Source: Oscillospiraceae bacterium
GTDB lineage: Bacteria > Bacillota > Clostridia > Oscillospirales > Ruminococcaceae
Assembly: GCA_014799395.1 (NCBI GenBank)
Contig: JAAVID010000065.1
Location: 1 to 40,209, forward strand
Direction: 5' to 3'
DNA length: 40,209 nucleotides
The notes below the pieces were generated by a model. That model searched no databases, was not told the origin of the DNA, and worked only from the letters and a program-made list of their open reading frames with translations. Each line of letters starts with the position of its first letter. The stretch's first letter is position 1. Of the stretch, positions 295-38,902 are shown piece after piece. Position numbers and translations under genes: made by a program.

Positions 295-331
295 TGCACA
301 TACTTTAACGGTGGAATTTGTTAAAGTGCAC
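295..331 (+). promoter_or_regulatory. Imperfect inverted repeat upstream of the DUF6075 promoter
   Basis: TGCAC-ATA-CTTTAAC (295-309) faces GTTAAAG-TGCA (320-330), giving two paired blocks around a 10-nt centre with a 3-nt bulge. It ends 40 bp before the -35 box at 371. It could be an operator or a decayed hairpin; only the symmetry is seen. Confidence 0.35.
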
Positions 332-370
332 AAAATTCCGACATTTTCAAAGAAATTCCCCCGAAACAGC

Positions 371-399
371 TTGACTTCATAGCTTTAAAGCGTTATAAT
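371..399 (+). promoter_or_regulatory. Sigma-A promoter for the DUF6075 gene
   Basis: TTGACT (371-376), a 17-bp spacer, then TATAAT (394-399). The gene starts 55 bp downstream at 455. Confidence 0.75.
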
Positions 400-454
400 A
401 TAGGCGTAAGGCAAGTTAGCGTGTGCTAACCACATTTTGAAAGGAGTTTGGCCT

Positions 455-853
455 ATGGCGATAAAATTCAGAAACACGGAGCATAAGAACCGCTTTTACG
501 GGATTTTGGAGCGAATGAGCAGCGGCGATGTGTACCATACCTCGGTTGCGTATCTTCTCGCGCTTGACAACGAGTGCTACAATCACATCGACAGTCTGTT
601 CGATTTTAAGGAAAATCTGATCAAGCCCTATGGAGCGTTGCAGCAGGCGTGGCAGACGGGAACGTCCACCAAAACAACGCGCTTGATGTTCAACCTCTGG
701 TGTAGTGCCTGTGAGGACTACGACCGCGAAAAGAACGCGGTCAAGGACAGCGGACGGAAATACACCGTTGACGAGATTTTTTCTTCAAGTCTGGCGGTAT
801 GGTACTTTGAGGCGGTCAAACTCCGCTACCCGAACATTAAGGAGGATATGTAA
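455..853 (+). CDS. DUF6075 family protein
   Basis: A 132-aa soluble protein without signal or membrane segment. The pattern MAIKFRNTEHKNRFYGIL at the N-terminus, then HIDSLFDFKENLIKPYGALQQ, WQTGTSTKTTRLMFNLW and YFEAVKLRYPN near the end, matches what I recall of DUF6075. That family is widespread on Firmicutes mobile elements and its function is unknown. I chose ATG 455, not the in-frame TTG at 437, because AAGGAG (441-446) lies 8 nt before it. The stop abuts the ParA-like start at 854, so the two were probably co-transcribed and translationally coupled. This is the only gene of the first 1.5 kb that still looks intact. Confidence 0.75.
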   Translation: MAIKFRNTEHKNRFYGILERMSSGDVYHTSVAYLLALDNECYNHIDSLFDFKENLIKPYGALQQAWQTGTSTKTTRLMFNLWCSACEDYDREKNAVKDSGRKYTVDEIFSSSLAVWYFEAVKLRYPNIKEDM

Positions 854-8056: not shown

Positions 8057-8156
8057 TGCAGCGGTTTGGCAAACGTTTGCGATTGTCAGATCGCATTGAC
8101 TATTTTGATGTTCCCATAGCCAAAAGCTATTTGAATAGATACGCGGACACTTCCGC

Positions 8157-8204
8157 GAAAACCGAACGGCTCTTTCAAAGCGTCCGCCCGGCTGTTCGGT
8201 TTTC
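8157..8204 (+). terminator. Hairpin in the gap after the repeat protein
   Basis: Perfect 11-bp arms GAAAACCGAAC (8157-8167) and GTTCGGTTTTC (8194-8204) flank a 26-nt loop. The gap 8057-8252 has no gene. It also holds the 12-bp palindrome GCAAACGTTTGC (8069-8080) and a small GCGAT/ATCGC hairpin (8079-8094). The 3' arm ends in TTTTC, so terminator function is plausible but not certain. Confidence 0.45.
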
Positions 8205-8252
8205 ACACCTTGAGGCGGACGCGGAATTTAAATTTTTCAGGAGGAAATTATT

Positions 8253-8528
8253 ATGGTTAGTGCGAATGCAAGCGTTTATTTCAAAGCAGGTGAAATGCGT
8301 GACTTTACCGACGCGGACAAGAGCGGGATCAGTGAAAAGGTAGAGGCGGCATTGCTCAAGAAGTTCGGCGCGGACAAAAAATGGGACGTTCAGGTCACCT
8401 ATTCGGTAATAGGTGAGGGAGACGACGTTCAAGGAACTCTCAGCGTGTACTGCTACGAGGTTTCATCGCCTACCGAGGAGAGCGTCAACGCCGAGGTGAA
8501 AAACGTGCTCTCCAAGATGTTCGGCTGA
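8253..8528 (+). CDS. Small hypothetical protein
   Basis: A 91-aa soluble protein with a good GGAGG ribosome site in CAGGAGGAAATTATT before ATG 8253. The pattern is a beta-strand (ANASVYFKAG), an amphipathic helix (DKSGISEKVEAALLKKFG), then two strands (KKWDVQVTYSVIG, VQGTLSVYCYEV) and a final helix (VNAEVKNVLSKMFG). This is a compact alpha/beta fold. I recognise no family and no catalytic motif. It is followed 27 bp later by a zinc-ribbon protein gene on the same strand, so they probably form a transcription unit. Confidence 0.65.
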   Translation: MVSANASVYFKAGEMRDFTDADKSGISEKVEAALLKKFGADKKWDVQVTYSVIGEGDDVQGTLSVYCYEVSSPTEESVNAEVKNVLSKMFG

Positions 8529-8555
8529 TTTGGCGATTTAGGGGTGTGATACATA

Positions 8556-8879
8556 ATGTGCCCTAAATGTAAATCCGGCAGCTTGTCGCCCGCGACTTTG
8601 GGTTCGTCAAATTATCGCTGCAATGTCTGCGGTTACACGGAGTTCCGACCGTCGCCGTCCGTTGATACGTCGTCTTCCCGTCAAAGAATGAACAGCGCAA
8701 TGAACGGATTCAACAACGCGGCTGACAATCTTCGCCGTGCCGGACGCGCACAGAATGACGCAATGCAAAACTACCGTGATGCGCGAAAGTCGCAAAAGCA
8801 GGAAAAAAGCGGCAAGGGCGGCTGGCTCGTTGTTGTCGTTGTGGCGATCATTGTATTTTTCCTGTTGAACGGCGGATGA
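8556..8879 (+). CDS. Zinc-ribbon protein with C-terminal membrane anchor
   Basis: A 107-aa protein. Residues 2-25 are a four-Cys zinc ribbon (C2, C5, C22, C25; CPKC and CNVC). A Ser/Asn/Arg-rich linker (33-88) follows, then one hydrophobic segment (WLVVVVVAIIVFFLL, about 90-104) at the extreme C-terminus. The ribbon would face the cytosol. This is the small 'zinc ribbon plus TM' design frequent in Firmicutes, with no known biochemical role. The kinase at 5230-6249 has a similar CxxC/CxxC ribbon, a shared trait within this cluster. Confidence 0.7.
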   Translation: MCPKCKSGSLSPATLGSSNYRCNVCGYTEFRPSPSVDTSSSRQRMNSAMNGFNNAADNLRRAGRAQNDAMQNYRDARKSQKQEKSGKGGWLVVVVVAIIVFFLLNGG

Positions 8880-37559: not shown

Positions 37560-37588
37560 TTGACAAATCTAAAAAAGTACGGTATAAT
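37560..37588 (+). promoter_or_regulatory. Consensus promoter P1 of the tRNA-Leu-like leader
   Basis: TTGACA (37560-37565), 17-bp spacer, TATAAT (37583-37588). The surrounding AAAAAGTACTTGACAAATC and GGTATAATATT blocks are repeated in P2 at 38428, so the two promoters are paralogous. Confidence 0.9.
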
Positions 37589-37594
37589 ATTATA

Positions 37595-37736
37595 CGTTCG
37601 ATGGATACATCGAATTTATATACGCAGGTGTGCTAAACCGGCAAGCCGGTTCCGAATTGGCGGACGCGTCGGCTTCGGGTCACGTCACGACAGCGGTTTT
37701 ATTTGAATATTTGAAGTCCCTATATAGGGCTTTTTT
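37595..37736 (+). ncRNA. Structured leader RNA with tRNA-Leu-like 5' half
   Basis: Between P1 and a terminator lies about 140 nt with three readable parts. The first is a hairpin TTCGATG-GATA-CATCGAA (37597-37614). The second is a tRNA-Leu-like segment beginning GCAGGTGTG at 37624, interrupted by a hairpin AACCGG-CAAG-CCGGTT (about 37636-37651), and resuming as GAATTGGCGGACGCG (37654-37668), the D-arm of tRNA-Leu. The third is an anticodon-loop-like TTCGGGT followed by GTCACGACAG instead of the 3' half of a tRNA. The transcript ends at the terminator, 20 nt before the flavoprotein start. It is either a transcription attenuator or a decayed tRNA gene with a live promoter. Confidence 0.5.
37714..37736 (+). 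terminator. Terminator ending the leader
   Basis: AAG-(T)-CCC (37714-37720) pairs with GGG-CTT (37727-37732) around TATATA, and a T6 run (37731-37736) follows. It sits 8 nt before the ribosome site of the flavoprotein gene, the typical position of an attenuator. Confidence 0.7.
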
Positions 37737-37756
37737 AATTTAAGCAGGAGTTATGT

Positions 37757-38342
37757 ATGAAAAAAAATCTTAATTATTCAAGGCGGCGGACGACCTAACG
37801 GAAATACCGATCAGCTTGTGAAAGCATTTGCCAAAGGCACTAACGACGCGGGGCATGAGGTTGAGATCGTATCTCTTATCAAGAATGAGGTCAGGGGGTG
37901 TCTTGGGTGCAACGCTTGTCGATACGGAAAGCCTTGCGTTCAAAAGGACGGCTTTAATGAAATAGTTCCGAAAATCATGGCTGCCGATCTGCTTGTATTT
38001 GCTTCTCCGCTTTACTTTTGGACTATATCTTCTCGAATTAAGGCGTTTATAGAGAGGTTTTACTGCATTGCCGAAGAAGATAAGAACCCGCCTCTGGGCA
38101 GATACGAACGGTATCCGGAAAAGGACTGCGCGCTGCTTATGACCGCGGCCGATAACTTCTTTTGGACTTTTGAACAGGCTGTGTCCTACTATAAATTTAC
38201 ATTAATAAACTATATCGGATTTCATGATAAAGGTATGTTGTTGGCAGGCGGCTGCGGTGACACAAACGGTAAACCTCAAATAGACAAAACCGAACACTTG
38301 GCTGCCGCATATAAATTCGGGAAAGAGATATACAAAGAATAG
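37757..38342 (+). pseudogene. NADPH-dependent FMN reductase/flavodoxin-fold protein, +1A frameshift at an A8 run
   Basis: CAGGAG (37745-37750) and ATG 37757 begin MKK. Eight A's (37760-37767) then put the frame one base off, giving a stop at 37797. With seven A's it reads ILIIQGGGRPNGNTDQLVKAF, the phosphate-binding loop of flavodoxin-fold reductases, and runs unbroken to TAG 38340-38342, about 195 aa. Other features are the Cys-rich CLGCNACRYGKPC, FASPLYFWTISSRIKAFIER (flavin contact), and a C-terminal FGKEIYKE helix. The protein would reduce flavins, quinones or disulfide-type substrates. The frameshift may be a recent mutation, an assembly error or slippage-controlled expression. Confidence 0.75.
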
Positions 38343-38427
38343 GTTCTCTTGCGATGCGGCATATGAATAATGAGACGGCTTTGTTAACAGTTGAGCCAAA
38401 ATTTATACAACTTTTTGAAAAAAGTAC

Positions 38428-38456
38428 TTGACAAATCGAAAATATTGTGGTATAAT
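38428..38456 (+). promoter_or_regulatory. Consensus promoter P2 upstream of the tRNA-Leu array
   Basis: TTGACA (38428-38433), 17-bp spacer, TATAAT (38451-38456). It shares AAAAAGTACTTGACAAATC and GGTATAATATT with P1. No terminator was seen between it and the tRNA at 38816, so it probably makes the tRNA precursor. The first transcribed part folds as TTCGGTGG-GAGA-CTGCCGGA (38465-38484), matching the P1 hairpin in position and shape but not in sequence. Confidence 0.9.
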
Positions 38457-38493
38457 ATTGTATGTTCGGTGGGAGACTGCCGGATTTTAATAC

Positions 38494-38575
38494 ACAGATG
38501 TACAAAATCGGCAGGTTGCTTTTTGAATTGGCAGACGCGCCAGTTTCGGGTCATGTCACGACAGGGTATTTATTT
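38494..38575 (+). repeat. tRNA-Leu 5'-half look-alike, unit 1
   Basis: ACAGATGTAC (38494) corresponds to the acceptor start, GAATTGGCAGACGCG (38525-38539) to the D-arm of tRNA-Leu, and TTTCGGGT to an anticodon loop. GTCACGACAG (38555-38564) then replaces the variable arm, T-arm and acceptor 3' strand. No anticodon stem can close, so it is not a tRNA gene. Confidence 0.65.
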
Positions 38576-38664
38576 TGATTGAAGCGGGGTTTTCGTTTTG
38601 ATATAGAATCCGCAAGGGTTCACTCGGGAATTTCAGCCGAGTAAAATTTCTGGAATCTATATTC

Positions 38665-38728
38665 GCAGGTGTGGCGGAATTGGCAGACGCGCTAGCTTCA
38701 GGCAACGTCACGACAGGGTGTTTATTTT
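38665..38728 (+). repeat. tRNA-Leu 5'-half look-alike, unit 2
   Basis: GCAGGTGTGGCGGAATTGGC (38665-38684) and the following AGACGCGCTAGCTTCAGG are almost a perfect tRNA-Leu(CAG) 5' half. At the anticodon loop it switches to CAACGTCACGACAGGGTG. It lies 152 bp after the same point of unit 1 and 151 bp before that of the real tRNA. The 88-bp spacer after it repeats the spacer after unit 1 (AATCCGCAAGGGTTCACTCG is in both), and both contain a CTCGG...CCGAG hairpin. Confidence 0.75.
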
Positions 38729-38815
38729 GATTGAAACGGAGTTTCCGTTTTGATATAGAATCCGCAAGGGTTCACTCGGGAATTTCGGCCGAGTTAAAAA
38801 TCTGAAATTTAATAC

Positions 38816-38902
38816 GCGGGTGTGTTGGAATTGGCAGACGAGCTGGCTTCAGGTGCCAGTGTCCGCAAGGACGTGTGGGTTCAAATCCCACCACCCGCAC
38901 CA
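38816..38902 (+). tRNA. tRNA-Leu (anticodon CAG) with encoded CCA
   Basis: An 87-nt gene. The acceptor is GCGGGTG (38816-38822) with CACCCGC (38892-38898), then A and CCA (38900-38902). It has the D-arm GAATTGGCAGACGAG, anticodon stem CTGGC/GCCAG with loop TTCAGGT (anticodon CAG, reads CUG), a long class II variable arm TGTCCGCAAGGACG, and T-arm GTGGGTTCAAATCCCAC. All stems pair, so it should be functional. Confidence 0.95.

Follow-up and report, generated by a model that had tools for sequence, protein, structure and literature searches.

Half-tRNA arrays in front of tRNA-Leu as probable left junctions of nested, tRNA-replacing islands in Clostridia

The truncated tRNA-Leu copies that precede a complete tRNA-Leu(CAG) gene in the window, i.e. 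the whole stretch of 40,209 nucleotides analysed here, are very probably the left junctions (attL) of integrative islands that occur in a group of gut bacteria, use the anticodon loop of tRNA-Leu(CAG) or tRNA-Leu(UAG) as their recombination site and replace the tRNA. In the proposed mechanism, the tRNA-Leu gene would serve as attB and integration would split it into a 5' half joined to the element arm P' at one end and an arm P joined to the 3' half at the other. A complete tRNA-Leu situated behind P' of the island would be expressed from the host promoter or from the island's own. As this replacement would form the next attB, later islands would nest inside earlier ones and 5' halves would pile up upstream. 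The right part of an island would then be lost, probably by homologous recombination between the 3' half of the replacement and the displaced 3' half, leaving either scars of 5' half, P' and spacer or left cargo such as the FMN reductase gene of the window. It is from the comparison of loci that we infer this route of scar formation.

Half-tRNA units and the intact tRNA gene of the window

Sequence comparison revealed three copies of the tRNA-Leu 5' half (Table 1). Each match to the tRNA stops at the first anticodon base and is directly followed by the foreign arm GTCACGACAGSG, which agrees with the claim of the earlier note that all three halves end at the anticodon loop and continue into one foreign sequence. 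The motif GGCAGACG starts at 38530 in unit 1, 38682 in unit 2 and 38833 in the intact tRNA, giving spacings of 152 and 151 bp, as had been stated before (151-152 bp). Of the promoters that had been assigned to the units, those ahead of units 0 and 1 are borne out by perfect hexamers (12/12 bases), whereas none precedes unit 2 and the total of promoter-like sites is at shuffle level (5 versus 4.3 in shuffled sequences, i.e. no excess).

Table 1. Features of the half-tRNA array and its surroundings (positions in the window)
Feature	Position	Strand	Evidence
Promoter of unit 0, TTGACA-17-TATAAT	37560-37588	+	12/12 hexamer bases
Unit 0, tRNA-Leu 5' half (B), 21-nt insert 37633-37653	37624-37676	+	match to tRNA
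Unit 0, putative element arm P' (attL right half)	37677-37702	+	shared arm, conservation extent
Left cargo, FMN reductase, frame interrupted near start	37757-38342	+	relative PF03358
Promoter ahead of unit 1, unit 2 and tRNA	38428-38456	+	12/12 hexamer bases
Unit 1, tRNA-Leu 5' half (B), insert 38503-38524	38494-38547	+	match to tRNA
Unit 1, putative arm P'	38548-38573	+	shared arm, conservation extent
Spacer/leader, P' of unit 1 to half of unit 2	38574-38664	+	unit comparison
Unit 2, tRNA-Leu 5' half (B), isodecoder other than intact tRNA	38665-38699	+	match to tRNA
Unit 2, putative arm P'	38700-38725	+	shared arm, conservation extent
Spacer/leader preceding intact tRNA	38726-38815	+	unit comparison
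Intact tRNA-Leu(CAG), putative current attB; deduced crossover TC 38849-38850	38816-38902	+	ARAGORN, Rfam
AbiH gene 3' of tRNA; cargo or old flank, contig ends	39000-40064	+	PF14253 1.6e-30; PADLOC 3.9e-15

The intact tRNA-Leu(CAG) is the sole tRNA-Leu recognised by ARAGORN and, at gathering scores, by Rfam, and none of the units matched an Rfam family at gathering score. Searching Rfam at E-values up to 10 added four sub-threshold matches; these, among them SNORA24 on unit 1 (18.8 bits, cut-off 40), were taken as chance. Readings as a group I intron, a T-box or an integron attC site were dropped on the basis of their consensus alone.

In units 0 and 1 an insert of 21-22 nt separates the acceptor from the D arm. 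Inserts at this place, often hairpins, can be seen by eye in at least 10 of the 72 distinct remnant 5' halves described below (e.g. at L041, L040, L043, L039 and L114). Such an insert may keep a dead half from pairing with the 3' half of the live tRNA in the same transcript.

Junctions and deduced attachment sites across the genus

A DNA search of the window's own genome and 60 relatives yielded longer matches adjoining tRNA-Leu(CAG) in several congeners. A half-plus-arm pattern with up to 3 mismatches was then run on 43 genomes of the same genus, including that of the window, and detected 47 attL sites in 21 of them, while the reversed pattern used as control gave none in all 43. At order level (up to 2 mismatches), 6 of 394 genomes and 3 of 168 genera were positive, and a GTDB scan with the pattern returned 28 stretches, partly identical contigs. 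Two copies of the window (L001 and L002) were excluded before counting, and condensing the 167 raw units left 72 distinct ones. Among the 37 loci examined, 26 hold units together with a tRNA-Leu and 11 have no tRNA-Leu. The units precede the tRNA-Leu on its 5' side and share its orientation in 25 of these 26 loci, which accounts for 52 of 53 units. The exception is L100, where a unit is located 3' of an intact tRNA-Leu close to the contig end. There (314-523, minus strand), the half-unit with its arm follows the intact tRNA-Leu(CAG) after about 70 nt, possibly representing two tandem tRNA-Leu genes of which the second was split. The window's own genome contains a second attL, of the UAG type (G000:C80:9736-9770, L123). 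The gene behind it, which we take to be HAD-like, recurs behind an attL in G014:C125 (L046).

The longest array, L113, consists of 10 in-register units whose halves derive from several tRNA-Leu genes (acceptors GCGCCCG, GCACCTG and GCGGGTA) and have the arm in common. The 5' halves align with tRNA positions 1-35; the alignment extends to position 36 if an A follows, this being the base of the tRNA as well. The last base of the half agrees with the downstream tRNA in 48 of 52 units (24 with TC at CAG loci, 24 with TT at UAG loci); the search pattern permitted, mismatches aside, only C or T at this base, and the fit could simply arise from the halves being copies of either CAG or UAG tRNAs. All four misfits are TT at CAG loci (two in L035, one each in L120 and L124).

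The opposite junction was found by BLAST with tRNA-Leu 3' halves, which detected separate 3' halves in G066:C65, G014:C102 and G066:C10, each with the arm in inverted orientation ahead of it. A pattern derived from these three sites and taking in 9 nt of the 3' half identified 14 attR sites in 11 of the 43 genomes (control 0). By eye, a readable tRNA-Leu 3' half follows the inverted arm in 12 of the 14; the two odd sites are truncated (G036:C16) or lack a tRNA half (G006:C107). P and P' are mirror images around NT|YR with the dyad at TY, which reads TC at CAG and TT at UAG loci. Arms placed in this way around 2 bp are what integration by a large serine recombinase (LSR) would require. The deduced attP would span about 50 bp as a near-palindrome (P-TY-P'), approximately AAATAAATCCCCTGTCGTGACGCTGCC-NT|YR-GGCAGCGTYACGACAGGGNNTTTATTT, with TY as the putative crossover dinucleotide. 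In the 72 distinct units, the arm is conserved for about 26 nt beyond the crossover, the first 17 nt having belonged to the search pattern. As judged from these arms, the units of the window are attL junctions of the type B-P'. Repeated integration inside tRNA-Leu, as suggested by the earlier note, is supported by the inverted arms on separate 3' halves, by a recombinase alongside and by arrays that mix halves of several tRNA-Leu genes, and so is its view that the shared downstream sequence would be the element-side attachment arm.

Parts of the site distribution weigh against this reading. The ratio of attL to attR is about 3:1, an excess that would require the proposed scar-forming step. Two genomes (G021 and G002) contain attR and no attL at 3 mismatches, and the pattern search found no attR in the window's own genome. 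The only P-P' site found is a near-perfect palindrome at G062:C94:1880-1915 (L194), on a contig that also holds AAA_25 and 143-aa genes; its core is ATTT, its direction is ambiguous and at odds with the gene order. Three stretches of viral contigs matching the P-P' pattern are palindromes lacking the core and were judged chance. The gene left of attL in G031 (an acetyltransferase by eye) had matches in 17 of the 43 genomes; none of these 17 stretches contains a tRNA, so that no fully empty site was found.

These junctions bear on two other explanations. A recombinase-free history, in which tRNA-Leu genes were tandemly duplicated and decayed, would account for the identity of units 1 and 2 (88% across 135 nt), and duplication may indeed add units. 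However, one foreign arm follows position 35 of different tRNA halves, its mirror image stands on displaced 3' halves, and unrelated genes spanning kilobases separate units, which makes this explanation extremely unlikely; plain tandem duplication, named beforehand as the case that would overturn the special readings, is contradicted by attR. Just as unlikely is a tRNA leader or, in line with the alternative offered in the earlier note, a family of tRNA-mimicking regulatory RNAs. Either would fit the position of the arrays between promoter and tRNA in one orientation, as well as a short hairpin, TTCAG..CTGAA, before the tRNA (window 38574-38815), which displays changes on both sides in 4 of 5 pairs among 14 aligned units. 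Yet the RNAalifold consensus of 14 chosen units is weak (12 pairs, -5.3 kcal/mol), and the lack of Rfam matches at gathering score, the end of conservation after about 26 nt of P' and the inversion of the arm at attR leave no need for an RNA family.

Replacement tRNA, recombinase and cargo

Replacement of the split tRNA is best seen in G066:C10, where an island of 13 kb lies between the two halves of one tRNA-Leu and encloses an LSR gene and a complete, different tRNA-Leu. Joining the 5' halves at L115:9745/10232 (GCGCCCG..) to the displaced 3' half at L137:12737, which has 1 mismatch in 49, restores a tRNA-Leu(UAG), whereas the enclosed complete tRNA-Leu(UAG) is another isodecoder (GCACCTG..). 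Half and complete tRNA also differ in L121, L096 and L116. ARAGORN called no tRNA at the two attL and one attR tested and called one on the rejoined halves; since the program also accepted mismatched halves (G020), this result is weak alone and the matching acceptor stems carry the weight. The enclosure of another isodecoder in a split tRNA-Leu implies that the island supplies a substitute for the tRNA which it splits and that this substitute is the next target. From the sequences, the target tRNA is destroyed and rebuilt at neither junction; the complete tRNA that comes with the element has the isotype of the target and would presumably be required for viability of integrants.

The fate of the right flank can be followed in three genomes, the assemblies being fragmented and the G031 element split over two contigs. 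In G031, the DNA to the right of the displaced 3' half matches the DNA to the right of the intact tRNA in G019 and, with lower similarity, in G016, while the DNA behind the intact tRNA of G031 is unlike this flank. G016 and G019 retain the left junction and left cargo together with the native right flank, which is what a collapse between 3' halves would leave.

The candidate enzyme, P0001, combines a Resolvase catalytic domain (PF00239, 6.4e-31), a Recombinase domain (PF07508, 2.2e-24) and a zinc ribbon (PF13408, 8.4e-15). At E<=1e-100 its clade comprises 7 copies in 6 of the 43 genomes, and none in the window's own. Five of the seven are devoid of internal stops; the copy in G066:C65 has one and that in G066:C10 two near its end. 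All seven are antisense and share a contig with a tRNA-Leu, a 3' half or an attR at a distance of 1.1 to 13.7 kb, the 3' half near the copy in G006:C22 being cut by the contig edge. The LSR of G066:C10 is located between tRNA and attR, 3.5 kb inside attR and 6.4 kb behind the tRNA, and a remnant in G002:C13 occupies a corresponding place, with tRNA and attR on the same contig. The copy in G014:C102 is situated outside the nearest attR, a position that would fit only with nesting. Relatives with 63-72% identity are similarly placed in L090, L092 and L105, and remnants in L045, L040 and L159; other LSRs (25-32% identity) near L124, L041 and L161 were set aside. Recurrent neighbours of the LSR are a 143-aa protein without Pfam match, an AAA_25 ATPase and an HTH protein.

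A serine recombinase is most likely the enzyme behind the sites, and this LSR is inferred to catalyse the integration. Both this enzyme and the whole replacement tRNA brought by the element go beyond the first reading of the DNA. That the same islands have another driver, e.g. a tyrosine integrase acting in trans, with the LSR a mere neighbour, appears quite improbable. It would explain why many attL-bearing genomes have no LSR (21 genomes with attL, 6 with LSR), and tyrosine integrases are the usual users of tRNA genes (PMC4383910). Against it stand the constant orientation of the LSR in 7 of 7 copies and the mirrored arms around 2 bp, which suit a serine integrase, and no other recombinase was present among the 8 of 12 ORFs (>=90 aa) scanned in G066:C10.

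The best PDB sequence match of the LSR is TnpX (2mhc, 1.4e-19), and plasmid TndX is 30.7% identical, a likeness to the TndX/TnpX group of transposons, which are not known to target tRNA-Leu. An inverted repeat, TGTGTCGTAGCACC..GGTGCTGCGACACA, occurs just upstream of the LSR start at L118:4681 and is partly kept at L045:10850 and L090:3255. It has TGTCGTARC in common with the P arm and is a possible operator or relic site. A Subdoligranulum plasmid (OY725838.1:43542-45089) encodes a 53% identical LSR together with an AAA_25-like ATPase, and the LSR module may therefore also reside on plasmids. As a tRNA-targeting relative the plasmid was rejected, since neither a tRNA nor a convincing arm was seen in the 25.5 kb examined.

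Wadjet, AbiH, DNA methylase/Vsr and FMN reductase are among the genes that lie between the sites or next to them, and the cargo appears to include phage defences. In L114, Wadjet JetA, JetB, JetC and JetD lie between two units, and the same locus contains an intact relative of the window's FMN reductase (8092-8649, PF03358), against which the window gene has, by eye, one extra base in an A run that breaks the frame near its start. The cargo of G066:C10 comprises PDC-M33A, a C5 methylase and Vsr. Several scanned proteins gave no match.

Gene-bearing intervals of this kind (the window FMN reductase, Wadjet in L114, L046) recall integrons, with which the loci share an array of sites and intervals by one fixed target. 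A resident recombinase next to tRNA-Leu might accordingly capture circular cassettes ending in a tRNA-Leu 5' half and arm and shuffle them between loci. Up to 10 in-register sites per array, different tRNA-Leu halves within one array and the excess of attL over attR would be compatible with such capture, which we nevertheless regard as unlikely to a high degree. The attR and the LSR module between tRNA and attR in G066:C10 delimit a whole island, the P-P' pattern search revealed no circular cassette, and serine integrases are not known to perform a B-P' x B-B' reaction. The integron enzyme IntI belongs to the tyrosine recombinases and works on folded attC sites; no IntI was found among 20 proteins scanned with Pfam, and the arm presumably does not fit the GTTRRRY consensus (by eye). 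With less assurance than for the preferred reading of nested, tRNA-replacing islands, we lean towards viewing tRNA-Leu of this clade as a self-renewing landing pad. Each LSR island would destroy the tRNA, replace it and so restore the target, islands would stack without limit, and their collapsed left ends would build up a domesticated, integron-like cargo store, defence genes included, that is traded among tRNA-Leu loci of the same core dinucleotide.

Relation to known systems

The closest parallel is tRNA-dependent lysogeny, reported for Fionnbharth, Gaia and other actinobacteriophages with tyrosine integrases and tested at the bench; Gaia uses tRNA-Leu(CAA) (PMC10865867). Both systems enter a host tRNA gene that is not rebuilt, share a short common core with it and bring a complete tRNA of the same isotype. 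The present islands differ in their putative serine recombinase, in the absence of phage genes among the proteins scanned, in the position of the tRNA close behind the attL arm and in repeated nesting into arrays. The temperate-phage scheme with a tyrosine integrase does not appear to apply to them: the sites are linked with a serine recombinase, and viral contigs contain no match to the exact attL pattern. The authors of that report consider a wider use of the tRNA-dependent strategy plausible (PMC10865867).

Islander tDNA islands have in common the split tRNA at the ends, a crossover in the anticodon as one listed sub-site and tandem arrays; there, however, the tRNA is rebuilt at one junction and the integrases are of the tyrosine type (PMC4383910). 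LSR sites are described as containing a core dinucleotide (PMC10083194). A mycobacterial PICI with a serine integrase uses no tRNA (PMC10654092), and the Paracoccus prophage vB_PamS_Pami6 is a predicted exception, sharing a serine recombinase and a predicted tRNA (Met) site and differing as a single prophage for which that text describes no replacement tRNA or array (PMC6536676).

Among the matches listed, which cover little subscription literature, no system uniting a serine recombinase, tRNA replacement and nesting is described, and within that coverage the system would be tRNA-replacing integration in a form not described before. If this holds true, tRNA-replacing integration is not confined to phages with tyrosine integrases but also occurs in Clostridia, on islands with a serine recombinase, and nested integration is seen to build a tRNA-linked gene store. 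An LSR that recognises a tRNA gene, with its arms and core, would also become directly testable, and clusters of half-tRNAs that ARAGORN passes over would be explained.
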